From Ridgeia piscesae (taxonomy: Eukaryota > Annelida > Polychaeta > Sabellida > Siboglinidae): a stretch of 64,000 bases of DNA. The notes beneath the pieces were generated by a model that was given only the letters and a program-made list of their open reading frames with translations, was not told the DNA's origin and made no database searches. A program made the position numbers and the translations under genes. Below are positions 5,500 to 47,865 of this stretch, in pieces. The stretch covers positions 128,501-192,500 of the forward strand of contig JAODUO010000055.1 in assembly GCA_025642075.2 (NCBI GenBank), written 5' to 3'. The number at the start of each line of letters is the position of its first letter. Position 1 is the first letter of the stretch.

Positions 5500-5948
<449 letters not shown>

Positions 5949-9301: not shown

Positions 9302-10095
9302 TCACTCCTGTATGACAAACTTGACGAGATCATCGACGCCCGAGAGATCGCTGTCACTGTTGTCATCATGGTTGTCAATGGAGACATTCTCCACCAATGA
9401 GATGGCCGGCGTGCTCGCATCATCCACGCCTGTCTCCTTCAGTAGGTTCTCAATCATAAAGCTGCCATTCTGAACCTTCAAACCGTCCAGCTGCCCTTTG
9501 ACCTCTGACTGACCTTTGACATTTGCAGCGGGGACATCGCCGCCATTTACCTGCCCTGGAATGTATCCTGTCACGTCGGTGCTACTACCCTGCAGTGCCT
9601 CGACTTTAGTCTCACTTTTGCTCCTTTCACTTTTATGGCCACTTTCACTATCACTGCGTTCAATGTCGTCCTCACTCGACTCAATCCTGTTTCGCTTTTT
9701 CTGTTTTCTCGATGACTTCTCGTTGCTGCTGCTTGCGTCACTCCCGTAACTTTCACTTCTGCGGCGAGACGACGGTCTCCTTTTCGCCACCTGGCGGCAA
9801 TAACTGCCACTCTTGCCGGAGTCGCTACTCACATGGTAGTCACTGTCATTGACATCACCCTTTGAACGTCTATGTCGTGTCTTTTTTGCCACATCAACAT
9901 CTGTGTCATCATCTGATGACACAACCGCTGATTTACGTCGTTTCGTGTGTCGCGAACGTGACGCGTCTGAGCCGTATTCGCTGCAAGTGTCACTGTCGGA
10001 GATCTCACGGTAATTGATGTTGGTCTTGACGACAGCACGACGCACGGGGAGAAACTCATCACTGTCAAGGTCACTGCCGCCCTCTTCATCGTCCA
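9302..10095 (-). CDS. RSF1: RSF1 last exon (stop codon)
   Basis: 264 codons including TGA at 9304-9302. Serine/aspartate-rich with basic clusters ([21 protein letters not shown]) and [10 protein letters not shown], similar to human INYKEDSESD. The final [13 protein letters not shown] matches the conserved C-terminal DLVDYV motif. Acceptor GTCGCACACAG/TG; phase fits exon 16. Confidence 0.93.
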
Positions 10096-13000
10096 CTGTG
10101 TGCGACAAACATAGCACTTTCATTTTCGTTTTGTTTTTCACAAAACTTCATTTCACATAACTAATTGTGTAGTTCTTTCCTATTGCTTCACTACAAAAAC
10201 CAAGAGTTACTTGTTTCATTTGGTGCACAGGGAGGGGAGGGGAGGTCACTCGGTTATGTCACGACTCAACTTTAGAAATATTGAGCACTCCATGTTCCTG
10301 AATCCCGGGCAAGTTTTGAAAAATTCTAAACTTGAGTGGGTCCACTAGATTTCAGTCTGATACACGCAAGCTTGAAGGAGGTGTGGATTCAAAAACATGC
10401 AGAGAAATAGTGTTTCATAATAGATATATTATAATTGACTTTGTTTCTTGACAAAGCTACACATTATCGCTAACATTTTAAGTCTTAAACAACCTTTTAA
10501 AAGAAACTTCACTTTTTCTTACCGAAATCGTCGTCATATTTTGATGTTTGCTTCCGACGCCGTGAACTCCTCCGAGTGCTCAGTGACCTTTGACCTTTGC
10601 GCCGTCGCCGCCGTTTGTTGCCAATTGTCAACCAATCATCAGAGTCTTCTTCTGTTACCGCTTCCAGCTCGTTGGCGTCAGAGTCGGCCGAGTCACTGTG
10701 ACATCACATGTAACCATGACAACCATACTGTTTATGTCATTTATATGTGGGGATTTCAAGACAAAACACATGAATGCTGTTTCTGGAAGGTTGTAGGGGG
10801 ACTGAAACACATCGACAACTATTGCCCAAACATAAGAACATGCCATTTAGAGGATATGTGACCATGATTGACGAGTTCAGAGACACGGTATATTAAAAAA
10901 ATTCAAACTTGGATATCATTGACCAATGGGCACCACCGTCGTATTAGGCTGACTTCGGTTGAGCTACTCGAGTTACTCGCGTAACCACAACGTGGTATCC
11001 GGTTTACACTGCATGCACAGTAATATGCGGGTAATCCAACTGAACACTGATGATCGTGTGTAAATTGTGACGTTCATCTTCTTGGTCTTAAATTATAATT
11101 CATAGAATGTGGTGACTTTAATCCATATTTAAATGATTGTGTCATGTAATGTTTAATTAATTTCTTATGCAGTAGTCACGTGCTTGAGTGATCTCGGCTG
11201 TTCGATTGGGACTCGTGTTACGCGAGTTACTCGCGTAGCTCAATCGAAGTAGGCCTTACGCTCTTTGAGTCGCTCTATCTAGTAGTGTCTACTCTATCTA
11301 GTAGTATTTACTCTATCTAATAGTATCTACTCTATCTAGTAGTGTCTACTCTATCTAGTAGTGTCTACTCTATCTAGTAGTGTCTACTCTATCTAGTAGT
11401 ATCTACTCTATCTAGTAGTATCTACTCTATCTAGTAGTATCTACTCAATGTCAACAACACATTTGTTTCCAATTTACTTAATCAATAGAGAGTTTTGTGT
11501 GGAAACAAGAATATGTTTAAACAGTGCACACAAGAGGGGAATGTGTTGTTGTAACCACGACAACGACTAGTGCTGTCAACAAAACATTCACAGGACGGTG
11601 ATATATCTGTACAATGTGACATAAATAAGTGTTAGCGAGTTACATCATGGATAGTTGCTAGGACTTCTTACGGGGACTTCATTGGTGACGGAACTACTTA
11701 CTAATTTGTTGGCAGTACTTACTCAGTAGCTTGGACTATTTTATTGCAGGGTCCACTTTCTGAGTAATGGGGACAAGTTTATGCAAAGGCTTTTTACTTA
11801 ACAGTTGGGACTACTTTAGACCGGAACTACTTACTCTGTGGCTTGGTATTCCTCCCCACTGTCCTCCTCCTCCTCATCGTCATCAGACAGGCCGGTCAGC
11901 TTCCGTGTTTTCTTCTTCTTCTTTGCCAGTACAGGAGGGGGGCGACAGTCATCACCCTCACCCGTGTCAGAGGCGTTGTAGATATCCTTCCCCGTGCCTT
12001 TATGGAGACGGCGAGGCGAAGACGTTGGTTCCAACTCAGCGTCATTCTCAATGTCTTTACCACGGCCACAAGAGGGCGCTGTTGTCTGGTCAACTTCGTT
12101 GTTGACCGAGGCATTGTAGATGTCCTTGCCGAAGCCTGGAGAGTCTGTTGACATGGCAACGTCTAAATAACAGTGCTAAACATTTATCTTCTATGATACT
12201 AATTTTTTTTTAATTCTCTAAAATGAATAAGTGCAAGGGTAAAATATAGAAAGTATTCATAATAGCAACATTTCAACCAACTTTTTTACCATCGACAACG
12301 TCATCAATATATTAATTCTCAACACACTACATTTATATTAAATTACACTTCACCACAAAGCCACAAACCTCTCATATAAACTGGTGCAACCTGGTGAGCT
12401 GTTCACTAGTAAGAAGAAAGTCCGCAGATAACACATTTACAGCACATTGAACTGTGGGAATAACTGACCACTCAAGTCGTCAACTGAAAACAGTAACTGT
12501 CTTTGTGGTGATGAATGTGTTGTCAGATGAAGGCCGAGTCACAAGTGTCCAAGGCCGTGACACCAGCACAGACGGACACTTAAGCTACTCTACAGTTGAC
12601 TTATGTGACTCAATGGCTGTGACTCGGATCACATGATCAGACATCTGACTTATATCGCTCAGTGGTTGACTTACACAACTCAATGGCTGCTCTACATAAA
12701 TCAGTGGCTGGCCTACTTACGTGACTTGGTAGCTGACTTGCATGACTCCATGGCCAACTAGTGTGACTCAATGGCAGACTTACATGACACAGTGGTTGAC
12801 TTACCTGACACAGTGGTTGACTTACGTGACTCAGTGGTTGACTTACGTGACTCAGTGGTTGACATACGTGACACAGTGGTTGACTTACGTGACACAGTGG
12901 CTGACTTACGTGACTCAGTGGTTGACTTACATGACACAGTGGTGACTCAGTGGTTGACTTACATGACACAGTGGTGACTCAGTGGTTGACTTACGTGACT

Positions 13001-16000
13001 CAGTGGTTGACTTTCATGACACAGTGGTGACTCAGTGGTTGACTTACGTGACACAGTGGTTGACTTACATGACTCAGTGGTTGACTTACATGACTCAGTG
13101 GTTAACTTACATGACACAGTGGTTGACTTACGTGACACAGTGGTTAACTTACATGACACAGTGGTTGACTTACGTGACACAGTGGTTAACTTACATGACA
13201 CAGTGGTTAACTTACATGACACAGTGGTTAACTTACATGACACAGTGGTTAACTTACATGACACAGTGGTTAACTTACATGACACAGTGGTTAACTTACA
13301 TGACACAGTGGTTGACTTACGTGACACAGTGGTTAACTTACATGACACAGTGGTTAACTTACATGACACAGTGGTTAACTTACATGACACAGTGGTTGAC
13401 TTACGTGACTCAGTGGTTGACTTACATGACACAGTGGTTAACTTACATGACACAGTGATTGACTTACGTGACACAGTGGTTGACTTACATGACACAGTGG
13501 TTAACTTACATGACTCAGTGGTTAACTTACATGACTCAGTGGTTGATTTACGTGACACGGTGGTTGACTTACGTGACACAGTGGTTAACTTACGTGACAC
13601 AGTGGTTAACTTACATGACTCAGTGGTTGACTTACATGACTCAGTGGTTAACTTACGTGACTCAGTGGTTAACTTACGTGACTCAGTGATTGACTTACAT
13701 GACACAGTGGTTGACTTACGTGACACAGTGGTTGACTTATGTGACACAGTGGCTGACTTATGTGACACAGTGGTTAACTTACGTGACACAGTGGTTGATT
13801 CACGTGACACAGTGGTCGACTTACGTGACATAGTGGTTGATTTATGTGACACAGTGGTTGACTTTCATGCCACAGTGGTGACTCAGTGGTTGACTTACGT
13901 GACTCAGCAGCGGGTGTGTCCTCCACGATGTCGTCTCTGATGGCCGAGCGGATCAACTCATCATATTCCTCAAACTTGTAGCTGATCTGTTCCCGGCATC
14001 TCCTCAGTCTCCTCTCAGCCTGCCAGCCTCTGTCTTCCTCCTCCTCTTCATCTTCTTCCGTCTCCTCAGCCTCTGTTTCCTCGTCTTCCCATTCGTCCTC
14101 TCTCAGCCTCAGCTTGCGTCTGTGCCGCTCCCTCTCGCGATGCTCCCTGCGTCGTTCTCGTCGTTGTTCCTCGCGCCGTGCCCGCCGCTCAGCAATCTTG
14201 TCTTCATCATCAACGTCGTCATCGCACTCGTACGTCTGGTCCTGGATAACAGTCACCCAGGGGTCAAATATTGTCACTCGGGGGTCAACTATTGTCAGTC
14301 AGAGGTCAAACATTGTCACTCGGGGTCAATCATTGTTAGTCAGAAGTCAAACATTGTCACTCAGGGGGGTTTAACATTGTCACTCGGGGGTCAACCATTG
14401 TCAGTCACAGGTCAAACATTGTCACTCAGGGGGTCAACCATTGTCACTCAGGCGTCAATCACTTTCACTCGAGATCAACCAATGTCATTCAGGGGTCACT
14501 TTCACCCTGGGTCCACCAGTCACTTGAGACTCAATTATTGTCAATCGGGGGTCAAACAGGGGTCAGGAACAAAAACATTAAGTTAATCTCTCTCCCAACT
14601 CTTATTCTTTCTAAACTAACATTTAAATACTTTCAAATACATTTATATTTCACCTCAAATCTGCAAACAACTCTGCCAGTCAACTGCTATGATATTAGAG
14701 ACAATGGCTGACAAGCCTTGGTAGCTAACTACAACATCAGTTGTTATTCTTTTTCTGTTTTTGTGCATATCTAAATTAACATAAGGTAAGTGCTGCCAAT
14801 GTGTACTTCCTCCTTGAAAGATTGTTAAGAAAATATTCTTATGCACATTTTTCATTGCAAATTGTAACATATGAACTGTATTATCCACACAGCAAAGTGG
14901 CAAAATTACATACGTATACATGTAGATTCAAAGCAACTTTTCTTTTAATGAGTTAATAATTATGAAGTCAAGTTCATAAGAACACTTACGGTTAAGATGT
15001 TATCGAGACTAATTCCCACAAATGCCAGCCTCTCCTTCCTAGAAACACATAGTAAACACCTCAGAACAAAACCTAGATAAAATAAAACTATTCTAATTTA
15101 ATATCACTGCACCCACAAATAACAAGTCAATAAATAAATTATGAAATAAATACTAAATATTTAAAAAATTATTTAAAATTGGTTAACTCCACAAATTTAC
15201 CCAACATGTAGATAACAATTTCTGCATGTATAATATGTGAACTTATTCAATAAACAAACACCTGCCCTTATGATTCCTATGTAACTGCTGTCCAATTATT
15301 ACAGTTAGTGCACTGTTAGTGAACTGTATCTGATTGTCATAGCTACTCCTCCAGCCACATAGAATTACGGCAGGCAGCACAGTTCTAAAAACAAGCAGTT
15401 TGATATCATCTCATGAATATGTAGAAATGTGATCAAACCTCTTCACAAGTCGGTCGTTCTTCTTGAGCAGTGCGTCCAGAGCTGTCAGTTGTGTCTGCAG
15501 ATGTTCCAGGAGGATGGTCTACAACATCAACACCACATGCCTTGTGTAGACACAGGGGGCAGGTCTTGTATAGCCACAGGGGGCAGGTCTTGTATAGCCA
15601 CAGGGGGCAGGTTTTGTGTAGCCACAGGGGCAGGTCTTGTGTAGCCGCAGGGGGCAGTTCTCGTGTAGCCACAGGGGCAGGTCTTGTGTAGCCACAGGGG
15701 GCAGGTCTTGTGTAGCCACAGGGGGCAGGGCTTGTGTAGCCACAGGGGGTAGGTCTTGTGTAGCCACAGGGGGCAGGTCTTGTGTAGACACAGGGGGCAG
15801 GTCTTGTGTAGCCACAGGGGGCAGGTCTTGTGTAGACACAGGGGGCAGGTCTTGTGTAGCCACAGGGGGCAGGTCTTGTGTAGACACAGGGGCAGGTCTT
15901 GTGTAGCCACAGGGGGCAGGTCTTGTGTAGACACAGGGGCAGGTCTTGTGTAGCCACAGGGGGCAGGTCTTGTGTAGCTACAGGGGGCAGGTCTTGTGTA

Positions 16001-19000
16001 GCCACAGGGGGCAGGTCTTGTATAGACACAGGGGGCAGGTCTTGTGTAGACACAGGGGGCAAGTCTTGTGTAGACACAGGGGGCAGGTCTTGTGTAGCTA
16101 CAGGGGACAGGTCTTGTGTAGCCACAGGGGTCAGGTCTTGTGTAGCCACAGGGGTCAGGTCTTGTGTAGCCACAGGGGCAGGTCTTGTGTAGCCACAGGG
16201 GGCAGGTCTTGTGTAGCCACAGGGGGCAGGTCTTGTGTAGCCACAGGGGGCAGGTCTTGTGTAGCCACAGGGGCAGGTCTTGTGTAGCCACAGGGGGCAG
16301 GTCTTGTGTAGCCACAGGGGGCAGGTCTTGTGTAGCCACAGGGGGCAGGTCTTGTGTAGCCACAGGGGGCAGGTCTTGTGTAGCCACAGGGGGCAGGTCT
16401 TGTGTAGCCACAGGGGGCAGGTCTTGTGTAGCCACAGGGGGCAGGTCTTGTGTAGCCACAGGGGTCAGGTCTTGTGTAGCCACAGGGGGCAGGTCTTGTG
16501 TAGCCACAGGGGCAGGTCTTGTGTAGCCACAGGGGCAGGTCTTGTGTAGCCACAGGGGTAGGTCTTGTGTAGCCACAGGGGGCAGGTCTTGTGTAGCCAC
16601 AGGGGGGCAGGTCTTGTGTAGCCACAGGGGGCAGGTCTTGTGTAGCCACAGGGGGCAGGTCTTGTGTAGCCACAGGGGCAGGTCTTGTGTAGCCACAGGG
16701 GGCAGGTCTTGTGTAGCCACAGGGGGCAGGTCTTGTGTAGCCACAGGGGGCAGGTCTTGTGTAGCCACAGGGGCAGGTCTTGTGTAGCCACAGGGGTCAG
16801 GTCTTGTGTAGCCACAGGGGGCAGGTCTTGTGTAGCCACAGGGGGCAGGTCTTGTGTAGCCACAGGGGGCAGGTCTTGTTAGCCACAGGGGCAGGTCTTG
16901 TGTAGCCACAGGGGCAGGCTTGTGTAGCCACAGGGGGCAGGTCTTGTGTAGCCACAGGGGTAGGTCTTGTGTAGCCACAGGGGCAGGTCTTGTGTAGCCA
17001 CAGGGGGCAGGTCTTGTGTAGCCACAGGGGGCAGGTCTTGTGTAGCCACAGGGAGCAGGCTTGTGTAGCCACAGGGGGCAGGTCTTGTGTAGCCACAGGG
17101 GGCAGGTCTTGTGTAGCCACAGGGGGCAGGTCTTGTGTAGCCACAGGGGGCAGGTCTTGTGTAGCCACAGGGGTCAGGTCTTGTGTAGCCACAGGGGGCA
17201 GGTCTTGTGTAGCCACAGGGGCAGGTCTTGTGTAGCCACAGGGGGCAGGTCTTGTGTAGCCACAGGGGCAGGTCTTGTGTAGCCACAGGGGGTAGGTCTT
17301 GTGTAGCCACAGGGGGCAGGGCTTGTGTAGCTACAGGGGCAGGTCTTGTGTAGCCACAGGGGCAGGTCTTGTGTAGCCACAGGGGTAGGTCTTGTGTAGC
17401 CACACGGGGCAGGTCTTGTGTAGCCACAGGGGTCAGGTCTTGTGAAGCCACAGGGGGCACGTCTTGTGTAGCCACAGGGGGCAGATTTTGTGTAGCCACA
17501 GGGGTCAGATCTTGTGTAGCCACAGGGGGCAGGTCTTGTGTAGCCACAGGGGGCAGGGCTTCTGTAGCCATAGGGGGCAGGTATTGTGTAGCCACAAGTT
17601 GCATGGCTTGTGTAGCCACACGGGGTAGGTCTTGTGTAGCCACAGGGGGCAGGTCTTGTGTAGCCACAGGGGGCAGGTCTTGTGTAGCCACAGGGGGCAG
17701 GGCTTGTCTAGCCACAGGGAGCAGGCCTTGTGTAGCCACATGGGGCAGGCATTGTGTAGCCACAGGGGGCAGGCATTGTGTAGCCACAGGGGTAGGTCTT
17801 GTGTAGCCACAGGGGTAGGTCTTATGTAGCCACAGGGGGCAGGTCTTGTGTAGCCACAGGGGGCAGGGCTTGTGTAGCCACAGGGAGCAGGCCCTGTGTA
17901 GCCACAGGGGGCAGGCATTGTGTAGCCACAGGGGGCAGGTCTTGTGTAGCCACAGGGGTAGGTCTTATGTAGCCACAGGGGGCAGGTCTTGTGTAGCCAC
18001 GGGGGTAGGTCTTATGTAGCCACAGGGGGCAGGCATTGTGTAGCCACAGGGGTAGGTCTTATGTAGCCACAGGGGGCAGGTCTTGTGTAGCCACGGGGGC
18101 AGACTGAGAGAGGGGAAGAGTGAAGGTTAGAGGGAAAGGTAGGGAGGAGATATATGATAGAAGGGAGACGGGGGGTGAGAGAGAGAAGAAACTATAACTT
18201 AAGAAGACACACCCAACAGTCTATAATTATCTAGCAAGTGTAAAAGTATTTGTTTGAGTAAAATTAATAAGTAATACATAAGCTGTGCTAAAATAACGAA
18301 CCTTCAGTTTGCTCTCAGAAACACTTACATTGTCACAACAGTGAAGATATTTGAGCAGTGTTTTAAGTGCTCTCCCATTTTTTTCTTTGTACCTGGTATG
18401 GTAAGTGTTAGGTCATCCTATGATCTTACTCCATAATGGATGCTTCCTGGAGTCAGCATTTTCTAAATATATTCCTCACTGCTTCTGATGTCAATGGCCC
18501 GAGTCTGTGATCCAGTTTAAACTGCTCAGACACAGTATTATTGGAACAAGTATACTGTCACTTTGACTGGGACCAGAGAAGACGAAATGTCAATCCACCA
18601 CGACTTCACTCTAACAAAAGCAAGTTATATTACAATCAGTCAAGTTACCCTCTGTTGGTCCGTAGTTAGGAGACTGTCAGAGTTTCTGTAGAATGCCTGC
18701 TCTGTGGAGACTGACGCAGGAGCACAGGAAATTCACATTCTGATGACAGCAAAGTTGCTTTACAACAGTTTGCGTAGTTATTTTTGAGAAGGGTGACAGA
18801 AGGTGTGACAGAAGGTGTGACAGAAGGTGTGACAGAAGGGGTGACAGAGAATGTCAATATTTGTGTAGACTTGTTCAGTATCAACTGACACGTGGCCAGA
18901 AGTGGCGGTCTGTCCCCACCTGTGTGTCTGTCCAGGCACTGAGGGTCATGTGGTGGACTCACCTGTTCACACTTGGGACAGAACCAGTCTCCATCAGGGA

Positions 19001-22000
19001 TGAGCATGAGGGGCGGCCGTAGACACGCCGTGTGGTAGCCTACGTCACACTGGTCACACAGCAGTATCTGTCAACACAAGCCTACGTCACACAACAGTAT
19101 TTGTCAATATGGCCCTATCTCAGACAGCAGTATCTCTCAACTCAAGCCTACGTCACACAGGTCGTGCAGCAGTACTTGTCAACTCAAGCCTACACCACAC
19201 AGGTCATGCAGCAGTACTTGTCAACTCAAGCCTACATCACACAGGTCGTGCAGCAGTACTTGTCAACTCAAGCCTACATCACACAGGTCATGCAGCAGTA
19301 CTTGTCAACACAAGCCTACATCACACAGGTCGTGCAGCAGTACTTGTCAACACAAGCCTACATCACACAGGTCGTGCAGCAGTACTTGTCAACTCAAGCC
19401 TACATCACACAGGTCGTGCAGCAGTACTTGTCAACACAAGCCTACATCACACAGGTCGTGCAGCAGTACTTGTCAACACAAGCCTACATCACACAGGTCG
19501 TGCAGCAGTACTTGTCAACACAAGCCTACATCACACAGGTCGTGCAGCAGTACTTGTCAACACAAGCCTACATCACACAGGTCGTGCAGCAGTACTTGTC
19601 AACACAAGCCTACATCACACAGTGCACAAGTGACACAGACTTGATATTGAAAGTTTCTTAATAAGTCCAATTTGGAAATATTACCTGACAAAACATATAA
19701 ACACAATAAATAATGTACAGCATTTTAATCCAATTAAATTGTTAAGTGTTTATTGGTTTTCTTGTTTAAAGTTAATCAGTTTGTTTACACCCGTCTTCTG
19801 CTGTATCCAATTACTTATATAGATAATAAATACAACTTTCAATGTTAGAAAACAAAGCACAACATTTAGTGCACTGCAAGGACTTGGAGTACATTCCATT
19901 ATTATAAGACAGACTTGGAGTACATTCCATTATTATAAGAGAGACTTGGAGTACAGTCCATTATCATAAGGCGGACTTGAAATACATTCAATCATAATGA
20001 GAGGAACTTGGTGTATGTTCCATTACAACGAGAGGACTTGGAGTACATTCCATCATAATGAGATGGACTTGGAGTAAATACCATTACAATGAGAGGAACA
20101 TCAAGTGCATTCCGTTACACTCACTGTGACTCAGAGTGCAGCCAACTTCCATATAATGCATACGGGGTGAGCCAGGGATATGTTCACTACCCCTAGGTTG
20201 TGAGGGTGGTGTATTTTAGATACTAACCAGTTCTGGGTGAGAAGCTTTGCCACAGCGAGTACAGTTGGTCTCATCCAAGTCCTCCACACCTTTCTCTAGA
20301 AACACACACCACAGGCACTGAACACACAAACACACAACACAGGCACTGAACACACAAACACACAACACAGGCACTGAACAAACAAACACACAACACAGGC
20401 ACTGAACACACAAACACACAACACAGGCACTGAACACACAAACACACAACACAGGCACTGAACACACAAACACACAACACAGGCACTGAACACACAAACA
20501 CACAACACAGGCACTGAACACACAACATACACACAACACAGGCACTGAACACACAACATACACACAGCAGAGGCACTGAACACACAAACACACAACACAG
20601 GCTCTGAACACACAAACACACAGCAGAGGCTCTGAACACACAAACACACAACACAGGCACGGAATACACAAACACACAAACACACAGCAGAGGCACTGAA
20701 CACACAAACACACAACACAGGCTCTGAACACACAAACACACAGCAGAGGCACTGAACACACAAACACACAGCAGAGGCTCTGAACACACAAACACACAAC
20801 AGAGGCACTGAACACACAAACACACAACACAGGCACTGAACACACAAACACACAGCAGAGGCACTGAACACACAAACACACAACACAGGCACTGAACACA
20901 AACACACAACACAGGCACTGAACACACAAACACACAACACAGGCACTGAACACACAAACACACAGCAGAGGCACTGAACACACAAACACACAACACAGGC
21001 ACTGAACACACAAACACACAACACAGGCACTGAACACATAAACACACAGCAGAGGCACTGAACACACAAACACACAACACAGGCACTGAACACAAACACA
21101 CAACACAGGCACTGAATACACAAACACACAACACAGGCACTGAACACAAACACACAGCAGAGGCACTGAACACACAAACACACAACACAGGCACTGAACA
21201 CACAAACACACAACACAGGCACTGAACACACAAACACACAGCAGAGGCACTGAACACACAAACACACAGCAGAGGCACTGAACACACAAACACACAACAC
21301 AGGCACTGAACACATAAACACACAGCAGAGGCACTGAACACACAAACACACAACACAGGCACTGAACACAAACACACAACACAGGCACTGAATACACAAA
21401 CACACAACACAGGCACTGAACACAAACACACAGCAGAGGCACTGAACACACAAACACACAACACAGGCACTGAACACACAAACACACAACACAGGCACTG
21501 AACACACAAACACACAGCAGAGGCACTGAACACACAAACACACAGCAGAGGCACTGAATACATAAACACACAACACAGGCACTGAACACACAAACACACA
21601 ACACAGGCACTGAACACACAAACACACAACACAGGCACTGAACACACAAACACACAACACAGGAACTGAACACACAAACACACAACACAGGCACTGAATA
21701 CACAAACACACAGCAGAGGCACTGAACACACAAACACACAACACAGGCACTGAACACACAAACACACAGCAGAGGCACTGAACACAAACACACAACACAG
21801 GCACTGAACACATAAACACACAACACAGGAACTGAACACACAACATACACACAACACAGGCACTGAACACACAAACACACAACACAGGTACTGAACACAC
21901 AAACACACAGCAGAGGCACTGAACACACAAACACACAACACAGGCACTGAACACAAACACACAGCAGAGGCACTGAACACACAAACACACAACACAGGCA

Positions 22001-40000: not shown

Positions 40001-43000
40001 AACCAGTTTTCGGCAAGAAAGCTATGTTAACATTTCTGTCCAACCAAAAACACTTGTACTGGGTTTTACAGAGCCACAGATTATTTTTAAATAGAGTAAC
40101 ATTTAATATCCATTTTTCTAAATTTTGCACTACATTGTGAAAACGACATCACTTTGGATCTCACACCATTCTTGTATTCTCCGATATCCACGTGCATGGG
40201 AAACATCAAATATTTCCTACCATACTCACCAAGAGGAGCCAATAAGTGAGTCCGTCCTTGTCTCGTCCGACCGGTAGGAAGCGTAGATCGTCTGCCGTCT
40301 GCTCATTGATCTTCTCCTTGAACTTATGGTTGCAGTCAAACTGAAGCTCCAGGAGGTTCTGTGAACAAACACGCCAACTGTTAACCTTTTAGCTCTAGTA
40401 GGTTCTGTGAACAAACACGCCAACTGTTAACCTTTTAGCTCCAGTAGGTTCTGTGAACAAACACGCCAACTGTTAACCCTTTAGCTCCAGTGGGTTCTGT
40501 GAACAAACACGCCAACTGTTAACCCTTTAGCTCCAGTGGGTTCTGTGAACAAACACGCCAACTGTTAACCTTTTAGCTCCAGGAGGTTCTGTGAACAAAC
40601 ACGCCAACTGTTAACCTTTTAGCTCTAGTAGGTTCTGTGAACAAACACGCCAACTGTTAACCTTTTAGCTCCAGTAGGTTCTGTGAACAAACACGCCAAC
40701 TGTTAACCCTTTAGCTCCAGTAGGTTCTGTGAACAAACACGCCAACTGTTAACCCTTTAGCTCCAGTAGGTTCTGTGAACAAACATGCCAACTGTTAACC
40801 CTTTAGCTCCAGTGGGTTCTGTGAACAAACACGCCAACTGTTAGCCCTTTAGCTCCAGTAGGTTATGTGAACAAACACGCCAACTGTTAACCTTTTAGCT
40901 CCAGTGGGTTCTGTGAACAAACACGCCAACTGTTAACCTTTTAGTTGCAGTAGGTTCTGTGAACAAACACACCAACTGTTAACCCTTTAGCTCCAGTGGG
41001 TTCTGTGAACAAACACGCCAACTGTTAACCCTTTAGCTCCAGTGGGTTCTGTGAACAAACACGCCAACTGTTAACCTTTAGCTCCAGTAGGTTATGTGAA
41101 CAAACACGCCAACTGTTAACCTTTAGCTCCAGTGGGTTCTGTAAACAAACACGCCAACTGTTAACCTTTTAGCTCCAGTGGGTTCTGTGAACAAACACGC
41201 CAACAGTTAACCCTTTAGCTCCAGTGGGTTCTGTGAACAAACATGCCAACTGTTAACCTTTTAGCTCCAGTGGGTTCTGTGAACAAACACGCCAACTGTT
41301 AACGTTTTAGCTCCAGTGGGTTCTGTGAACAAACACGCCAACTGTTAACCTTTTAGCTCCAGTAGGTTCTGTGAACAAACACGCCAACTGTTAACCTTTT
41401 AGCTCCAGTGGGTTCTGTGAACAAACACGCCAACTGTTAACCTTTTAGCTCCAGTGGGTTCTGTGAACAAACACGCCAACTGTTAACCTTTTAGCTCCAG
41501 TGGGTTCTGTGAACAAACACGCCAACTGTTAGCCCTTTAGCTCCAGTGGGTTCTGTGAACAAACACGCCAACTGTTAACCCTTTAGCTCCAGTGGGTTCT
41601 GTGAACAAACACGCCAACTGTTAACCCTTTAGCTCCAGTAGGTTCTGTGAACAAACACGCCAACTATTAACCCTTTAGCTCCAGTAGGTTCTGTGAACAA
41701 ACACGCCAACTGTTAACCCTTAGCTCCAGTAGGTTCTGTGAACAAACACGCCAACTGTTAACCTTTAGCTCCAGTAGGTTATGTGAACAAACACGCCAAC
41801 TGTTAACCCTTTAGCTCCAGTAGGTTCTGTGAACAAACATGCCAACTGTTAACCCTTTAGCTCCAGTGGGTTCTGTGAACAAACACGCCAACTGTTAACC
41901 CTTTAGCTCCAGTGGGTTCTGTGAACAAACACGCCAACTGTTAACCCTTTAGCTCCAGTAGGTTCTGTGAACAAACACGCCAACTGTTAACCTTTAGCTC
42001 CAGTAGGTTATGTGAACAAACACGCCAACTGTTAACCTTTAGCTCCAGTGGGTTCTGTAAACAAACACGCCAACTGTTAAAACCTTTTAGCTCCAGTAGG
42101 TTCTGTGAACAAACACGCCAACTGTTAACCCTTTAGCTCCAATGGGTTCTGTGAACAAACACGCCAACTGTTAGCCCTTTAGCTCCAGTAGGTTCTGTGA
42201 ACAAACACACCAACTGTTAACCTTTTAGCTCCAGTGGGTTCTGTGAACAAACACGCCAACTGTTAACCCTTTAGCTCCAGTAGGTTCTGTGAACAAACAC
42301 GCCAACTGTTAACCCTTTAGCTCCAGTAGGTTCTGTGAACAAACACGCCAACTGTTAACCCTTTAGCTCCAATGGGTTCTGTGAACAAACACGCCAACTG
42401 TTAGCCCTTTAGCTCCAGTGGGTTCTGTGAACAAACACGCCAACTGTTAACCCTTTAGCTCCAGTGGGTTCTGTGAACAAACACGCCAACTGTTAACCCT
42501 TTAGCTCCAGTAGGTTCTGTGAACAAACACGCCAACTGTTAACCTTTAGCTCCAGTGGGTTCTGTAAACAAACACGCCAACTGTTAACCTTTTAGCTCCA
42601 GTGGGTTCTGTGAACAAACACGCCAACTGTTAACCCTTTAGCTCCAGTGGGTTCTGTGAACAAACATGCCAACTGTTAACCTTTTAGCTCCAGTGGGTTC
42701 TGTGAACAAACACGCCAACTGTTAACCTTTTAGCTCTAGTAGGTTCTGTGAACAAACACGCCAACTGTTAACCTTTTAGCTCCAGTAGGTTCTGTGAACA
42801 AACACGCCAACTGTTAACCCTTTAGCTCCAGTAGGTTCTGTGAACAAACACGCCAACTGTTAACCCTTTAGCTCCAGTAGGTTCTGTGAACAAACATGCC
42901 AACTGTTAACCCTTTAGCTCCAGTGGGTTCTGTGAACAAACACGCCAACTGTTAGCCCTTTAGCTCCAGTAGGTTATGTGAACAAACACGCCAACTGTTA

Positions 43001-46000
43001 ACCTTTTAGCTCCAGTGGGTTCTGTGAACAAACACGCCAACTGTTAACCTTTTAGTTGCAGTAGGTTCTGTGAACAAACACACCAACTGTTAACCCTTTA
43101 GCTCCAGTGGGTTCTGTGAACAAACACGCCAACTGTTAACCTTTAGCTCCAGTGGGTTCTGTGAACAAACACGCCAACTGTTAACCTTTAGCTCCAGTGG
43201 GTTCTGTGAACAAACACGCCAACTTTAACCCTTTAGCTCCAGTAGGTTCTGTGAACAAACAGCCAACTGTTAACCTTTTAGCTCCAGTGGTTCTGTGAAC
43301 AAACACGCCAACTGTTAACCTTTAGCTCCAGTGGGTTCTGTGAACAAACACGCCAACTGTTAACCTTTAGCTCCAGTGGGTTCTGTGAACAAACACGCCA
43401 ACTGTTAACCCTTTAGCTCCAGTGGGTTCTGTGAACAAACACGCCAACTGTTAACCCTTTAGCTCCAGTGGGTTCTGTGAACAAACACGCCAACTGTTAC
43501 CCTTTAGCTCCAGTGGGTTCTGTGAACAAACACGCCAACTGTTAACCTTTAGCTCCAGTGGGTTCTGTGAACAAACACGCCAACTGTTAACCTTTAGCTC
43601 CAGTGGGTTCTGTGAACAAACACGCCAACTGTTAACCTTTTAGCTCCAGTAGGTTCTGTGAACAAACACGCCAACTGTTAACCCTTTAGCTCCAGTGGTT
43701 CTGTGAACAAACACGCCAACTGTTAACCTTTAGCTCCAGTAGGTTCTGTGAACAAACACGCCAACTGTTAACCTTTTAGCTCCAGTGGTTCTGTGAACAA
43801 ACACGCCAACTGTTAACCTTTTAGCTCCAGTAGGTTCTGTGAACAAACACGCCAACTGTTAACCTTTAGCTCCAGTGGGTTCTGTGAACAAACACGCCAA
43901 CTGTTAACCTTTTAGCTCCAGTGGGTTCTGTGAACAAACACGCCAACTGTTAACCCTTTAGCTCCAGTGGGTTCTGTGAACAAACACGCCAACTGTTAAC
44001 CCTTTAGCTCCAGTGGGTTCTGTGAACAAACACGCCAACTGTTAACCCTTTAGCTCCAGTGGGTTCTGTGAACAAACACGCCAACTGTTAACCTTAGCTC
44101 CAGTAGGTTCTGTGAACAAACACGCCAACTGTTAACCTTTAGCTCCAGTGGGTTCTGTGAACAAACACGCCAACTGTTAACCTTTTAGCTCCAGTGGGTT
44201 CTGTGAACAAACACGCCAACTGTTAACCCTTTAGCTCCAGTGGGTTCTGTGAACAAACATGCCAACTGTTAACCTTTTAGCTCCAGTGGGTTCTGTGAAC
44301 AAACACGCCAACTGTTAACCCTTTAGCTCCAGTAGGTTCTGTGAACAAACACGCCAACTGTTAACCTTTAGCTCCAGTAGGTTCTGTGAACAAACACGCC
44401 AACTGTTAACCTTTTAGCTCCAGTGGGTTCTGTGAACAAACACGCCAACTGTTAACCTTTTAGCTCCAGTGGGTTCTGTGAACAAACACGCCAACTGTTA
44501 ACCTTTTAGCTCCAGTGGGTTCTGTGAACAAACACGCCAACTGTTAACCTTTTAGCTCCAGTAGGTTCTGTGAACAAACACGCCAACTGTTAACCTTTTA
44601 GCTCCAGTGGGTTCTGTGAACAAACACGCCAACTGTTAACCTTTAGCTCCAGTGGGTTCTGTGAACAAACACGCCAACTGTTAACCCTTTAGCTCCAGTA
44701 GGTTCTGTGAACAAACACGCCAACTGTTAACCTTTAGCTCCAGTAGGTTATGTGAACAAACACGCCAACTGTTAACCCTTTAGCTCCAGTAGGTTCTGTG
44801 AACAAACACGCCAACTGTTAACCCTTTAGCTCCAGTGGGTTCTGTGAACAAACACGCCAACTGTTAACCCTTTAGCTCCAGTGGGTTCTGTGAACAAACA
44901 CACCAACTGTTAACCTTTTAGCTCCAGTAGGTTATGTGAACAAACACGCCAACTGTTAGCCCTTTAGCTCCAGTAGGTTCTGTGAACAAACACGCAACTG
45001 TTAACCTTTTAGCTCCAGTAGGTTCTGTGAACAAACACGCCAACTGTTAACCTTTTAGCTCCAGTAGGTTCTGTGACCAAACACGCCAACTGTTAACCTT
45101 TTAGCTCCAGTAGGTTCTGTGAACAAACACGCCAACTGTTAACCTTTTAGCTCCAGTAGGTTCTGTGAACAAACACGCCAACTGTTAACATTTTAGCTCC
45201 AGTGGGTTCTGTAAACAAACACGCCAACTGTTAACCTTTTAGTTCCAGTGGGTTCTGTGAACAAACACGCCAACTGTTAACCCTTTAGCTCCAGTGGGTT
45301 CTGTGAACAAACACGCCAACTGTTAGCCCTTTAGCTCCAGTGGGTTCTGTGAACAAACACGCCAACTGTTAACATCCAGAAAGTTTCGTGGACAAACGGT
45401 TCAATTGTTAACCCTTTAGACATTGAAGCCGACAGACCACAGCATTATCTCGAGACCCATCTACATGTCATCTACACAGGTAGTCTGATTTTGATCAGTA
45501 AAAATGTGTCACTAAATTAAAATGCAAAAATCTGAGAAACAAAAAATTGGACATTGTGTCTATGCACTACTCGGCAGAGAATTTTATTATTTCAAACAAG
45601 TTAAATAGTAATGGCACCTTGAGCATTCGCAGCTTGGTGGAGACTTTGCAGCGCGGGAATCCAAACTTCTCCAACTCCCACGCATCTACTTGAGAGTAGG
45701 TATAGCAGAACTACAACATGACACAGGGCAATGCATGTCACATCATCAAATATGACTTACACATGCTTACAATTGATTCAAAATGACACAGGGCACTGCA
45801 TGTCACAGCAACAAACAGGACTGACACATGCATACAATTGATACAACATGACACAGGGCAATGCATGTCACATCATCAAATATGACTTACACATGCTTAC
45901 AATTGATTCAAAATGACACAGGGCACTGCATGTCACATCATCAAATATGACTGACACATGCTTACAATTGATTCAAAATGACACAGGGCACTGCATGTCA

Positions 46001-47865
46001 CATCATCAAATATGACTGACACATGCTTACAATTGATTCAAAATGACACAGGGCGCTGCATGTCACATCATCAAATATGACTGACACATGCTTACAATTG
46101 ATTCAAAATGACACAGGGCGCTGCATGTCACAGCAACAAATATGACTGACACATGCTTACAATTGATTCACTGAGAGTACCATGTAATAATGTACACAGG
46201 GAGGAGAGACTTACAGCAATGAGACTGCCATGTAATAAGGTATACAGGGAGGAGAGACTTACAGCAATGAGACTGCCGGGTAATAATGTACACGGGGAGG
46301 AGAGACTTACAGCAATGAGACTGCCATGTAATAATGTACACGGGGAGGAGAGACTTACAGCAATGAGACTGCCGTGTAATAAGGTATACAGGGAGGAGAG
46401 ACTTACAGCAAAGAGAGTACCATTTAATAATGTATACGGGGAGGAGACTTACAGCAATGAGAGTACCATTTGATAATGTATACGGGGAGGAGACTTACAG
46501 CAATGAGAGTACCATTTAATAATGTATACGGGGAGGAGACTTACAGAAATGAGAGTACCATTTAATAATGTACACGGGGAGGAGAGACTTACAGCAATGA
46601 GAGTACCATTTAATAATGTATACGGGGAGGAGACTTACAGCAATGAGAGTACCATTTAATAATGTATACGGGGAGGAGACTTACAGCAATGAGAGTACCA
46701 TTTAATAATGTTCACGGGGAGGAGACTTACAGCAATGAGAGTACCATTTAATAATGTACACAGGGAGGAGACTTACAGCAATGAGAGTACGCTCCCATTT
46801 CTCTGTCTTCACTGTTCTCTTCCACTTACGTAGCAGCACCAGGAGAACATCCCTCAGTCGGTCTGGCACTGCACAAACATGACACATCACTGAGACCAAC
46901 TAGACACTGTCCAGCTACCTTCAGAAATCAGAACCTTTGGTGCACTGTTCTACGGAGCAATCCTACCATCAGTATTGACCCAACATGGGATCAAATACAT
47001 TTGTATTTGAAAGTATTTAAATACCTATTTTAAGTATTTGTAATTGACCTTTAGGAATTAAAAGTATTTGCATTTAAATACTTTCCCAAAAGTATTTGGT
47101 ATTTTCAAATACATTGTCAGTATCAATATTTATGTTTCACGATCACATGTAATGCCTGCCAAACTGGTTACCTTCACTGCAAACTACCTTGATGTGTCAC
47201 CTCAACGTACACTATAGTTGACTTGTCAGCCATGGTCCATGGATATGTCAACAAAGTTTTGAGTTGGGGTCTCCCAAATCACCAGACATAATTGTAGCAA
47301 TTCTACCCAGTATAATCTACGAGTACCTTGAGAATTACGAAAAGAACAAGCTCAAAGAGAAACATTAGTACTGGCCGAAGCCACACATCGGTCACATAAA
47401 CCAGCGTCAGAGAAACAACAAGTGAACACGAACGCCGTGGTCGTGAATGGTGATAGAGAGACAAGACACTGTCACTGTGACACGGACGTTAAGTTCTTAT
47501 CGATAAAATATCAAGTGTTATGCCCACAACTGTACATTTAAACACGTGTACCTGCATACATATACATACAAGAAGGACATACCACTACCCTGTACGATTA
47601 AGAGTATAACAATAATTTGGACAGCAGCGAAAAAGTCGGTAAATTGTTGACCGATTCTTTGTTGACATTTTCTCAAACGAAATTCGCGCCAAGAATATGC
47701 AAAACAGAAAACGATTTCAACGTTACCAAAACGTGCTTCCTCGAGATATCTTTGCAGGGCATCGAATGATACGTCGGGTAAGTTTAATAAACTACCATGT
47801 CTGTCAATAAACGAGCAAACAATGGCAAAATTAGGATCGGAGTGCACGGCAGAAACTTCCGCCAT
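9302..47865 (-). CDS. RSF1: RSF1-like chromatin remodeling subunit, 17-exon gene model
   Basis: Join of exons (5' to 3' on minus): 47727-47865, 46777-46868, 45618-45710, 40230-40358, 39366-39442, 38843-38964, 35147-36448, 33745-34307, 32783-33056, 20228-20295, 18963-19067, 15439-15518, 14990-15038, 13899-14241, 11835-12144, 10523-10695, 9302-10095. The total is 4713 nt, about 1570 residues; human RSF1 has 1441. Every junction keeps codon phase. Domain order matches RSF1: N-terminal WHIM-like region (residues 1-217), long acidic/lysine-rich middle (218-930), C4HC3 PHD finger (about 944-986), a conserved FEEYDEL block, two GKDI motifs, serine/aspartate-rich tail, and a C-terminal [10 protein letters not shown] like the human DLVDYV end. 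In vertebrates RSF1 is the nuclear histone-binding partner of SNF2H/SMARCA5 in the RSF nucleosome-spacing complex. Introns hold large tandem arrays. The family call is firm; exact splice sites are inferred without RNA data. Confidence 0.93.
10096..10522 (-). other. RSF1 intron 16
   Basis: 427 bp with no array and no recognised element. Confidence 0.7.
10523..10695 (-). CDS. RSF1: RSF1 exon 16
   Basis: Encodes [20 protein letters not shown], then [15 protein letters not shown] and [14 protein letters not shown]. Acceptor GATGTCACAG/T completes GA+T across the junction; donor GATTTCG/GTAAGA, phase 1. It corresponds to the low-conservation arginine/aspartate region of vertebrate RSF1. Confidence 0.85.
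10947..11255. mobile_element. PIF/Harbinger-like MITE
   Basis: 309 bp in RSF1 intron 15. Terminal inverted repeats of about 39 bp begin GGCTGACTTCGGTTGAGC (left) and GGCCTACTTCGATTGAGC (right, inverted) and end CTCGCGTAAC. Flanked on both sides by TTA, the target duplication typical of PIF/Harbinger elements. No coding capacity. Confidence 0.8.
11266..11447. repeat. 19-bp tandem array
   Basis: Unit CTCTATCTAGTAGTGTCTA, about 9 copies, in RSF1 intron 15 next to the MITE. No resemblance to the neighbouring splice sites. Confidence 0.9.
11448..11834 (-). other. RSF1 intron 15, donor-proximal part
   Basis: Loosely repetitive phrases (ACTACTTACT, CTTGGACTAC) but no clear array or element. Confidence 0.5.
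11835..12144 (-). CDS. RSF1: RSF1 exon 15, GKDI repeats
   Basis: Encodes [10 protein letters not shown], later GRGKDIEND and [10 protein letters not shown], then [20 protein letters not shown]. Human RSF1 has GKDISTI twice at this place. Donor CACAGA/GTAAGT, phase 2. Two phase-compatible acceptors exist: TCAACAG at 12145, or TTATTTAG giving a start at 12162 and six more residues. Confidence 0.87.
12163..12649 (-). other. RSF1 intron 14, acceptor-proximal part
   Basis: Unique sequence between the 21-bp array and exon 15, nothing recognised. Confidence 0.6.
12650..13907 (-). repeat. 21-bp array seeded by the exon 14 donor
   Basis: About 59 units. On the minus strand each has the form GTCACGTAAGTCAACCACT, that is, a 5' splice site. 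The real exon 14 donor (GAGTCAC/GTAAGTCA at 13899/13898) is the first unit and shares 9 exonic bases (13899-13907). Many copies keep GTAAGT; variants include ATGTAAGT. Heptad-like frames such as STTVSRK arise because 21 is a multiple of 3. Confidence 0.95.
13899..14241 (-). CDS. RSF1: RSF1 exon 14
   Basis: Encodes [20 protein letters not shown], an arginine/glutamate-rich stretch, an acidic stretch, and the conserved [20 protein letters not shown] (human ISYRFDEFDEAIDEAIEDDI). Acceptor GTTATCCAG/GAC, donor GAGTCAC/GTAAGT, phase 1. The donor region seeds the 21-bp array at 12650-13907. Confidence 0.93.
14250..14560 (-). repeat. 20-22-bp array abutting the exon 14 acceptor
   Basis: About 14 units such as GGGGTCAACCATTGTCACTC. 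The first unit merges with the sequence directly before the exon 14 acceptor (GGGGTCAAATATTGTCACTC at about 14260). The splice AG itself is not copied. Confidence 0.85.
14561..14989 (-). other. RSF1 intron 13, array-free part
   Basis: AT-rich, no element recognised. Confidence 0.6.
14990..15038 (-). CDS. RSF1: RSF1 exon 13 (49-nt micro-exon)
   Basis: Encodes [17 protein letters not shown]; human has RKERLVYVGISIENIIP. Acceptor GTTTCTAG/G, donor TTAACC/GTAAGT, phase 0. Confidence 0.93.
15039..15438 (-). other. RSF1 intron 12
   Basis: 400 bp, AT-rich, no array, no element recognised. Confidence 0.7.
15439..15518 (-). CDS. RSF1: RSF1 exon 12
   Basis: Encodes [20 protein letters not shown] and NDRLVK, matching human LLCEKLEEQLQDLDVALKKKER, a predicted helix after the PHD finger. 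Acceptor GATGTTGTAG/ACC, donor GTGAAGAG/GTTTGA, phase 2. Confidence 0.92.
15540..18105 (-). repeat. 23/24-bp array in RSF1 intron 11
   Basis: About 107 units of GTGTAGCCACAGGGGGCAGG plus TCTT; a 23-bp variant lacks one G. It starts 20 bp from the exon 12 acceptor. On the minus strand each unit has a C-rich pyrimidine tract and AAG/ACCTGCCCCCTG, loosely like the real TAG/ACCATCCTCCTG, but origin from the splice site is only possible here. The reading frames (ATQDLPPV) are artefacts. Confidence 0.95.
18106..18788 (-). other. RSF1 intron 11, middle part
   Basis: Purine-rich at the array edge then unique sequence; nothing recognised. Confidence 0.6.
18789..18849. repeat. 12-bp tandem repeat
   Basis: Five copies of GTGTGACAGAAG in RSF1 intron 11, about 110 bp from the exon 11 donor. 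Confidence 0.85.
18963..19067 (-). CDS. RSF1: RSF1 exon 11, PHD finger core
   Basis: 35 codons beginning [19 protein letters not shown] and ending [13 protein letters not shown]. With exon 10 it completes the Cys4-His-Cys3 zinc ligands (CTRC, CDQC, HTAC, CPKC). It is almost identical to human RSF1 ([19 protein letters not shown]). Acceptor GTGTTGACAG/ATAC, donor GAACAG/GTGAGT. The acceptor plus the first 34 exonic bases are unit one of the adjacent 42-bp array. Confidence 0.96.
19026..19632 (-). repeat. 42-bp array seeded by the PHD exon acceptor
   Basis: About 14 units. The first unit (about 19039-19080) is the real exon 11 acceptor plus the first 34 bases of coding sequence. Later units read, on the minus strand, GTTGACAAGTACTGCTGCAC then GACCTGTGTGATGTAGGCTT, against GTTGACAGATACTGCTGTGT and GACCAGTGTGACGTAGGCTA in the exon. 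The units nearest the exon are shorter and more diverged; distal ones are homogeneous. Confidence 0.93.
19862..20118. repeat. About 30-bp degenerate array in RSF1 intron 10
   Basis: About 8 imperfect copies of GACTTGGAGTACATTCCATT followed by an ATAAGAGA-like linker. No resemblance to the flanking splice sites. Confidence 0.8.
20228..20295 (-). CDS. RSF1: RSF1 exon 10, first zinc knuckle of PHD
   Basis: Encodes [19 protein letters not shown]; human has EPCKKCGLPNHPEL. It supplies the first C-x2-C pair of the PHD finger. Acceptor GTTTCTAG/AG, donor GAACTG/GTTAGT, phase 0. The upstream intron is about 12.5 kb, almost all of it a 28-bp repeat. Confidence 0.93.
20302..32362 (-). repeat. 12-kb, 28-bp array in RSF1 intron 9
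   Basis: About 430 units of ACACAGGCACTGAACACACA plus AACACACA, with variants (GCAGAGG for ACACAGG, short units, extra CACA). On the minus strand the unit is a G/T tract followed by GTGTTCAG/TGCC. The real exon 10 acceptor (GTGTGTGTTTCTAG at 20296) directly continues the array. Because 28 is not a multiple of 3 and the unit lacks stop codons on the minus strand, all three frames stay open for more than 4000 codons. Confidence 0.98.
32383..32755 (-). repeat. 42-bp array near the exon 9 donor
   Basis: About 9 highly uniform units (AAACTGACTGATACACGAAC, AAACACATCAACAGATACAC, AT). On the minus strand each unit has ATCAGTCAGTTTATGTGTAT, resembling the donor region AAGGTCAGTCACATGG; derivation from the donor is possible but unproven. 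Confidence 0.93.
32783..33056 (-). CDS. RSF1: RSF1 exon 9, acidic linker before PHD
   Basis: Begins [20 protein letters not shown], then runs of D and E ([11 protein letters not shown]) and [14 protein letters not shown], like the SEEEEEKESEE stretch before the PHD finger in human RSF1. Acceptor TGTTTCCCAG/AAG, donor CTCAAAG/GTCAGT, phase 1. Confidence 0.9.
33057..33744 (-). other. RSF1 intron 8
   Basis: AT-rich, about 690 bp, array-free. Needs a GC donor at 33744-33743 on the minus strand. Confidence 0.7.
33745..34307 (-). CDS. RSF1: RSF1 exon 8
   Basis: 187 codons of disordered, charged sequence with basic clusters ([22 protein letters not shown]) and [14 protein letters not shown], similar to human RRSPRISRPTAKV at the start of the region reported to bind ubiquitinated H2A. 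Acceptor AATGTTTCAG/AT. The only phase-compatible donor is AAG/GCAAGG, giving a GC-AG intron. Confidence 0.85.
34565..34790. repeat. 20-23-bp array in RSF1 intron 7
   Basis: About 10 units of ACATGTCACAGATCACATGC. It lies some 260 bp from the exon 8 acceptor with no resemblance to it. Confidence 0.9.
34800..35146 (-). other. RSF1 intron 7, donor-proximal part
   Basis: AT-rich, no recognised element. Confidence 0.6.
35147..36448 (-). CDS. RSF1: RSF1 exon 7, long charged region
   Basis: 1302 nt, no stop, about 434 residues of low complexity rich in K, E, D and S (for example [12 protein letters not shown] near the start, [13 protein letters not shown] at the end). It corresponds to the poorly conserved, SUMO-site-like VKEE-rich middle of vertebrate RSF1. 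It holds a short coding repeat of DVKR (four copies). Acceptor CTGTCAACAG/GC, donor CAGCTAG/GTTTGT, phase 1. The long reading frame on the opposite strand here is a compositional shadow. Confidence 0.87.
36500..38533 (-). repeat. 45/46-bp array in RSF1 intron 6
   Basis: About 44 units of GATAAATCACCTGTCACACA, AGACATTGGTCACTTTACAG, ACATGT; a variant lacks one base (GTGTAAATCAC). On the minus strand each carries TGTGTGACAG/GTGATTT, a sequence with both 3'- and 5'-splice-like character. It starts about 50 bp from the exon 7 acceptor. Confidence 0.96.
38534..38842 (-). other. RSF1 intron 6, donor-proximal part
   Basis: About 310 bp, AT-rich, nothing recognised. Confidence 0.6.
38843..38964 (-). 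CDS. RSF1: RSF1 exon 6
   Basis: Encodes [16 protein letters not shown] and a serine/glycine-rich tail ending SSDTE. It aligns with human RNRNELAETLALLKAQ and closes the conserved N-terminal region. Acceptor TTCTCAG/C, donor ACGGAAG/GTATGT, phase 1. Confidence 0.88.
39100..39374 (-). repeat. 20-bp array seeded by the exon 5 donor
   Basis: About 14 units. On the minus strand each reads GGTTGTCAGGTAGGACACAT. The real donor (GGTTGTCAG/GTAGGACACA at 39366/39365) is the first unit and shares 9 exonic bases. Many copies keep CAG/GTAG. A short (GT)n tract lies at 39068-39089. Confidence 0.94.
39366..39442 (-). CDS. RSF1: RSF1 exon 5 (77-nt micro-exon)
   Basis: Found by filling the gap in the homology. 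It encodes [15 protein letters not shown] then TWQRVV, matching human DQDHNVRMYIEEQDD and WKCIVR. The acceptor follows GGTTTGTAG; the donor GTTGTCAG/GTAGGA gives phase 2, which exon 6 completes as AG+C. The donor seeds the 20-bp array at 39100-39374. Confidence 0.9.
39443..40229 (-). other. RSF1 intron 4
   Basis: About 790 bp; three copies of AAATTTGACACATCATCAT at 39660-39710, otherwise nothing recognised. Confidence 0.6.
40230..40358 (-). CDS. RSF1: RSF1 exon 4
   Basis: 43 codons, phase 0 on both sides. Begins [20 protein letters not shown] and carries the hallmark [11 protein letters not shown] (human IGRDKDGLMYW), part of the WHIM/D-TOX-like region. The acceptor TTTGTTCACAG/AACCTCC is the first unit of the 46-bp array at 40345-45372. 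The donor is CTCTTG/GTGAGT. Confidence 0.93.
40345..45372 (-). repeat. 46-bp array seeded by the exon 4 acceptor
   Basis: About 109 units. On the minus strand each reads GGCGTGTTTGTTCACAG/AACCTACTGGAGCT, matching the real exon 4 acceptor and first 14 coding bases (GGCGTGTTTGTTCACAG/AACCTCCTGGAGCT, acceptor at 40359). The real junction is the first unit. Variants: 45-bp units, TTAACC/TTAGCC, GGTTCT/GGTTAT. Higher-order similarity is visible (blocks near 40600-41000 recur near 42720-43100). Confidence 0.97.
45373..45617 (-). other. RSF1 intron 3, donor-proximal part
   Basis: About 245 bp of unique sequence between the 46-bp array and exon 3. Confidence 0.6.
45618..45710 (-). CDS. RSF1: RSF1 exon 3
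   Basis: 31 codons, phase 0 on both sides. Contains [19 protein letters not shown], which aligns with human WAWEMEKKGYLEMSVECKL. The acceptor follows CATGTTGTAG; the donor CTCAAG/GTGCCA is weak beyond the GT. Confidence 0.9.
45711..46168 (-). repeat. 65-bp array abutting the exon 3 acceptor
   Basis: About 7 units containing ATGACACAGGGCACTGCATG, TCACATCATCAAATATGACT and ACAATTGATTCAAA. The first starts in the polypyrimidine region of the exon 3 acceptor (minus strand GTCATGTTGTAG). The second retains CATGTTGTAT; later ones have CATTTTGAAT. Confidence 0.92.
46169..46790 (-). repeat. 45/48-bp array seeded by the exon 2 donor
   Basis: About 14 units. On the minus strand each includes TACTCTCATTGCT/GTAAGTCTCC, the last 13-14 coding bases of exon 2 and its donor (junction 46777/46776). 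Length variants come from GGAG and GGAGAG. This array and the 65-bp array together fill the whole intron. Confidence 0.95.
46777..46868 (-). CDS. RSF1: RSF1 exon 2
   Basis: Encodes [15 protein letters not shown] and [10 protein letters not shown], matching the human block VPKELVELHLKLMRK with DRWEKYL. The acceptor follows TTTGTGCAG; the donor is CATTGCT/GTAAGT, phase 0. The donor and 14 exonic bases also form the first unit of the array at 46170-46790. Confidence 0.93.
46985..47118. repeat. TATTTG-rich palindromic repeat
   Basis: Sequence rich in ATTTGTATTTGAAAGTATTT and its inverse (AAATACTTTCCCAAAAGTAT), resembling a MITE end pair in RSF1 intron 1. Boundaries unclear. Confidence 0.45.
47119..47726 (-). 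other. RSF1 intron 1, donor-proximal part
   Basis: Unique sequence, nothing recognised. Confidence 0.5.
47727..47865 (-). CDS. RSF1: RSF1 exon 1 (start codon)
   Basis: The ATG is at 47865-47863. The peptide begins [20 protein letters not shown], and the block PNFAIVCSF is nearly identical to the N-terminus of vertebrate RSF1 (PNFAVVCSF). It ends in EEARF with a donor TTTTG/GTAACG, phase 1. This is the first ATG in the frame and no better upstream start was seen. Confidence 0.93.

Follow-up and report, generated by a model that had tools for sequence, protein, structure and literature searches.

Six splice junctions in the RSF1 gene of the annelid Ridgeia piscesae lie inside tandem repeats whose unit carries sequence from both sides of the exon–intron border. 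The RSF1 arrays most likely are mirage-type minisatellites of the kind known from amphioxus; short duplications born at a junction would expand within the intron and be tolerated through splicing at the outermost copy. Junction-seeded repeats are not confined to RSF1 and are present in several unrelated genes. In amphioxus, mirages were recorded one gene at a time. Their presence outside that lineage, in several genes of one genome and in measurable excess over chance, makes it possible to ask genome-wide whether splice signals seed tandem repeats, whether such seeding accounts for large introns, and how splicing passes over a hundred decoy sites of equal strength. As a tentative extension, to which we give somewhat less than even weight, minisatellites may repeatedly originate at splice junctions in two or more separate animal lineages, with mutation linked to splice signals, and not transposons, driving intron growth in such genomes.

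Junction repeats and intron arrays of RSF1

The RSF1 gene occupies the minus strand of the window (the whole stretch of 64,000 nucleotides analyzed here), running from an ATG at 47865 to a stop at 9302. Our hand-built model joins 17 coding exons into a single open frame of 1576 amino acids, and all introns are GT-AG except intron 8, which is apparently GC-AG (AAG/GCAAGG at 33745/33744, minus strand). Residues 1–220 align with three RSF1-type proteins, one each from clam, spider, and fish. The PHD region yielded 1649 matches; among the best 120 of these, many are named RSF1 and the top five are molluscan.

We compared 24 nt around each of 32 RSF1 junctions (9 nt exonic) with every shift of 10–120 nt into the intron, using 1842 non-array positions as the null (99th percentile 17.6, maximum 20). 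Five junctions match themselves in tandem almost perfectly: the donors of exon 2 (23 of 24 nt), exon 5 (24), and exon 14 (22), and the acceptors of exon 4 (23) and exon 11 (22). These are the five junction-containing repeats proposed in a first-pass annotation of the window, and all five junction positions given there (46777, 39366, 13899, 40358, and 19067) agree with the 17-exon model. A sixth junction repeat, absent from that annotation, is found at the exon 6 donor; it is short and partly decayed, with 19 of 24 matches at a shift of 19 nt. Taken alone, this score falls inside the null range, and the case is supported by a Tandem Repeats Finder (TRF) row of period 19 and 2.4 copies on which the junction sits. 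The next-best junction, the exon 15 donor, reaches 17 of 24. In total, 6 of the 32 junctions carry a repeat, five strong and one weaker, with four donors and two acceptors represented.

The array at the exon 2 donor (junction 46777/46776) has a 46-bp unit, spans 46172–46790, and shares 14 exonic nt by its TRF edge, or 15 of 17 positions by ungapped extension. At the exon 4 acceptor (40358), ~110 units of 46 bp occupy 40345–45373 and include 14 exonic nt, while the 20-bp array at the exon 5 donor (39366/39365; 39100–39374) includes 9. The short 19-bp array at the exon 6 donor (38843/38842; 38811–38855) takes in 13 exonic nt by its TRF edge. A 33/42-bp array at the exon 11 acceptor (19067; 19053–19622) shares ~31 exonic nt that code for the start of the PHD finger, with ~5 mismatches by hand alignment (14 of 15 positions by ungapped extension). 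At the exon 14 donor (13899/13898), the TRF array of 21-bp units ends at 13883, ~15 nt before the donor, and a junction unit with 9 exonic nt matches at a 21-nt shift; TRF rows and junction unit were joined by hand into one array (12658–13899). The exonic overlaps first reported for exons 2, 5, 14, and 4 thus stand at 14, 9, 9, and 14 nt, and the 34 nt reported for exon 11 becomes ~31.

TRF returned 68 rows in the window, and merging nested rows by hand gave 17 arrays in RSF1 introns, all listed here on the minus strand, with units of 12–65 bp. Units shorter than 10 bp, arrays lying wholly in exons, and two weak two-copy rows (34985–35021 and 36482–36532) were left out of this count. Three arrays abut an acceptor, as the first-pass annotation had noted: a 65-bp array (45714–46170) ends 3 nt before exon 3, a 28-bp array of 12 kb (20300–32363, two TRF rows joined) ends 4 nt before exon 10, and a 21-bp array (14252–14498) ends 10 nt before exon 14. 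Slightly farther away, a 24-bp array (15541–18102) ends 22 nt before the exon 12 acceptor, and a 42-bp array (32367–32746) lies 36 nt from the exon 9 donor. The others are interior and away from junctions, with units of 19 bp in intron 4 (2.7 copies, 39661–39712), 46 bp in intron 6 (36518–38537), 21 bp in intron 7 (34582–34787), 31 bp in intron 10 (19880–20119), 12 bp in intron 11 (18787–18848), and 19 bp in intron 15 (11273–11446). Together the arrays cover 26,178 bp, out of a total intron length of 33,833 bp, and thereby fill 67.9% of the 38,564-bp gene span, in line with an earlier estimate of about two thirds.

Kinship with amphioxus mirages and a proposed origin

The first-pass annotation knew of no described class of such repeats, yet the same structure has been described in amphioxus under the name of mirages. 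These are tandem repeats across 5′ or 3′ exon–intron borders, with units of 10–160 bp, reported in Adh3, the globins BflGb6 and BflGb9, PGBD5, and TnC (PMC3087553, PMC3902484); the PGBD5 paper adds more lancelet genes (PMC3902484), and the globin paper describes the origin of mirages as unclear (PMC3087553). RSF1 shares with them a border-spanning unit, both types of border, many copies with AG or GT, and a functional border that is itself one unit. Recurrence over several genes, also a trait of mirages, is found here in RSF1, CCT genes, and a PHD-finger locus (L002). The two systems differ in scale, with ~110 units at one RSF1 junction and 12 kb in an abutting array compared to 3–6 units in amphioxus BflGb6, and six junction cases within one gene set RSF1 apart from the amphioxus mirages as described in those papers. 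Amphioxus mirages leave regular mRNA splicing undisturbed, whereas in RSF1 the splicing pattern is predicted from the open, conserved frame. Length instability, between haplotypes or somatic, is a further trait of mirages; the RSF1 arrays are described here from a single assembly. Among the matches listed in a search of titles and abstract openings in the open-licence literature, we found no report of mirages outside lancelets. The kind is therefore already known, but within the literature searched its occurrence in this host lineage is new.

RSF1 proteins of Branchiostoma (P0106, P0185) are 43% identical to the RSF1 of the window over conserved blocks. A clade joining the two was rejected in two tests (AU 0.0025 and 0.003). 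The same pair of comparisons is compatible with two placements of the window protein: a mollusc clade that includes it (AU 0.083 and 0.309) and a position within or next to the chordates (0.233 and 0.598).

Two other systems are related. The minisatellite of human IFI6 (6-16) provides multiple splice donors (Turri 1995, cited in PMC4526556), and, according to the citing paper, its downstream repeat units serve as donors. In IFI6 as in RSF1, the splice donor of a genuine exon is part of the minisatellite unit; IFI6 is a single locus as cited, and the RSF1 system adds acceptor arrays and recurrence across genes. Introns derived from tandem arrays (Zhuo 2007 and Rogers 1989, cited in PMC3087553) likewise involve tandem duplication including splice signals, but there the duplication creates new introns, whereas the existing introns of RSF1 appear to grow.

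We propose that the starting event is a short tandem duplication (~20–70 bp) spanning a junction, for which slippage between brief stretches of identity in the G/T-rich splice signals is the probable cause. Additional copies would become intron, where the array could grow by slippage or unequal exchange and be homogenized. Such growth would go unopposed as long as splicing keeps to the outermost copy, probably as the sole copy beside a real exon (exon definition), and the arrays may thereafter be mostly neutral intron growth. RSF1 acceptors are G/T-rich, with a fraction of 0.56–0.89 over 18 nt, and slippage in splice signals is the simplest source of the duplications that we can infer.

The duplications might instead be coupled to transcription and be triggered at exon borders by R-loops or by replication stress, which the first-pass annotation had offered as an example of a mechanism; this origin is possible but unlikely. 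It draws on a modest G/T richness of the sense strand, above background in 40 of 57 arrays (P 0.0016; the set combines 17 RSF1 arrays with 40 of CCT genes), and on the distribution of arrays, which fill 26.2 of 38.6 kb in the gene versus 0.1 of 9.3 kb and 2.5 of 16.1 kb outside it, a weak test that covers one gene and its flanks. The G/T signature is itself weak, however: the bias is not clear among arrays of at least 200 bp (19 of 32, P 0.19), C outnumbers G in the sense strand of the exon 2 and exon 14 arrays (GC skew −0.32 and −0.11), and the G/T-rich acceptors of RSF1 give a simpler reason for the bias of the arrays.

Excess over chance in RSF1 and in independently chosen genes

Could the junction repeats be accidents of a minisatellite-rich genome, in which units landed on the borders of ancestral introns of ~100–1000 bp? 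For RSF1, every array was reduced to a single unit, which was then assigned a random position either in its own intron or in any intron (pooled). Straddling arrays number 6 of 17 against 2.28 expected in the own-intron null (P 0.0076) and 0.99 in the pooled null (P 0.00025). Omitting exon 6, which restores the five cases first proposed, leaves 5 of 16 (P 0.039 and 0.0015, respectively). Arrays that straddle a junction or lie at most 10 nt from one are 9 of 17, where the own-intron null predicts 4.99 (P 0.014) and the pooled null 2.58 (P 0.00025). Part of the excess is due to short ancestral introns, since the collapsed introns measure 101–984 bp and this by itself gives the 2.28 expected straddles; the count is also post hoc because the gene was picked for its repeats. 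The excess in RSF1 is nevertheless likely to be real.

The same genome (628,048,202 bases in 4875 contigs) was searched with the chaperonin family PF00118, giving 50 matches. Nine CCT gene regions, 153.5 kb in all and chosen blind to repeats, hold 48 of them; the matches on contigs C107 and C271 (loci L009 and L010) lie outside the count, and neither locus has an array at its matched CCT exon. We counted 57 of 59 arrays, those of period 10–200, excluding arrays with periods of 470 and 359 bp, and called an array straddling if 7 nt or more of it lay within an HMM-matched exon piece and 7 nt or more lay outside. This rule marks 6 of the 57 as straddling, where chance would give 0.77 (P 0.00008), so that the enrichment check proposed with the first-pass annotation, run here on a small scale, came out positive. 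The same six remain at score cut-offs of 100 (of 38 arrays, P 0.00008) and 200 (of 27, P 0.00002).

Junctions of the CCT genes were read by eye; an automatic caller placed none in 19 of 39 exon pairs and misplaced that of contig C288. The by-eye reading gives seven straddling arrays (six acceptors and one donor), a number reached in 0 of 20,000 simulations. Contig C17 has two, with a 44-bp unit sharing 14 exonic nt and a 48-bp unit sharing 9; C525 has a 27-bp unit sharing 7; C564 has a 54-bp unit sharing ~38 and, at the donor, a 72-bp unit sharing ~19; and C661 has a 43-bp unit sharing 18. The seventh, a 36-bp unit with 10 exonic nt on C288, lies outside the mechanical six. In two of the six (the second of C17 and that of C525), the HMM match extends into the repeat and the by-eye exonic overlap is 7–9 nt; without them, four remain, with P ~0.008 by a Poisson estimate.

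Eight PHD-finger loci were inspected. One of them, L002, shows the pattern: its array of 22-bp units takes in 15 exonic nt, with one mismatch. By hand count, the array of L008 enters the exon by ~4 nt and that of L003 ends ~14 nt short of it; the remaining five loci have no array at the exon.

Chance placement can point to the short collapsed introns, to the position of most RSF1 arrays inside introns, and to the majority of arrays, which do not straddle a junction (11 of 17 in RSF1; 50 of 57 in CCT regions by eye and 51 of 57 by rule). Against the own-intron and pooled results, and against six CCT straddles in regions selected without regard to repeats, we judge it improbable. An excess at junctions in unrelated genes points instead to a mutational bias, and a recurrent process that starts at junctions, as the first-pass annotation had argued, is likely given RSF1 and the independently chosen CCT genes.

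Several observations accompany these searches. Large arrays of up to 3.9 kb lie clear of matched exons in other CCT introns (L054–L056, L047–L048, L052–L053, and L043), and the 470-bp tandem repeat of C525 overlaps a matched CCT exon. Myosin (75 matches) and cullin (40 matches) exons were located in the same genome, outside the straddle test. PHD-like matches comprise many near-identical ones (positions 8–47, in 96-codon frames) and a smaller set (positions 1–47, in 368-codon frames); the two sets suggest multi-copy elements with PHD-like fingers.

Splice sites within the arrays

Splice sites in the array copies were scored with approximate tables, and donor copies were sought at GT only, so that lost donors are uncounted. 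The exon 4 array holds 109 intronic copies of the acceptor context; AG is intact in 102 of these, and the score equals or exceeds that of the used site in 101. GT-bearing donor copies reach or exceed the score of the functional site in 11 of 12 cases at exon 2 (13.2 units by TRF), 5 of 11 at exon 5 (13.8 units), and 44 of 48 at exon 14. By comparison, AG is kept in register in 1 of 13 copies at exon 11, and a scan of the array copies at exon 6 found the donor context kept in none. With equal or stronger copies so abundant, a strong site is not enough to single out the functional junction; the adjoining exon probably does so. Splicing at the outermost copy is predicted from conservation of the protein.

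The direction of copying can be read at exon 11. The shared stretch there codes for 10 residues conserved in other RSF1 proteins (ILLCDKCDAG in Mactra, ILLCDSCDNG in Umbra). Since other animals keep these residues, the exon holds the older sequence, from which the intron copies derive. Splice-like motifs in 38 non-straddling arrays have no clear strand preference: the best acceptor scores higher on the sense strand in 18 arrays, which is no excess, and the best donor does so in 26.

Selection might retain the extra splice sites as a buffer, as decoys, or for alternative splicing of varying length. Full-strength sites are indeed kept in copies at exons 2, 4, and 14, and IFI6 offers a precedent for the use of downstream units as donors (PMC4526556). 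The exon 14 frame stays open for ~120 nt into its 21-bp array (13777–13898, minus strand), and the first inner donors, if used, could add 7-residue units to RSF1 in frame. Homogenization by itself keeps copies alike, however, the copies at exons 6 and 11 have decayed, units of 46 bp would shift the frame, and those of exon 11 hold in-frame stops. Selection for extra splice sites thus has little support here, and we assign it a small probability. A second frame of the exon 14 array is open for 301 codons (12962–13864).

A still smaller probability goes to intron gain, in which duplication of proto-splice sites, a route proposed for globin introns (PMC3087553), made the introns and left the arrays as relics of their birth: repeats account for over 99% of introns 2 and 9 (1062 of 1066 bp, from the 46-bp and 65-bp arrays together, and 12,444 of 12,487 bp), but 135–965 bp of non-repeat sequence is left in the other RSF1 introns, and straddling arrays begin at one intron end.

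The window contains other repeats outside the gene. Broken retroelement pieces resembling reverse transcriptase and recombinase were recognized by eye at 1–3600 (minus strand), and TRF detects a (CA) microsatellite of ~227 units at 5500–5946. A LINE-type fragment at 62646–63906 (plus strand) has 75 relatives, some of them 97% identical.
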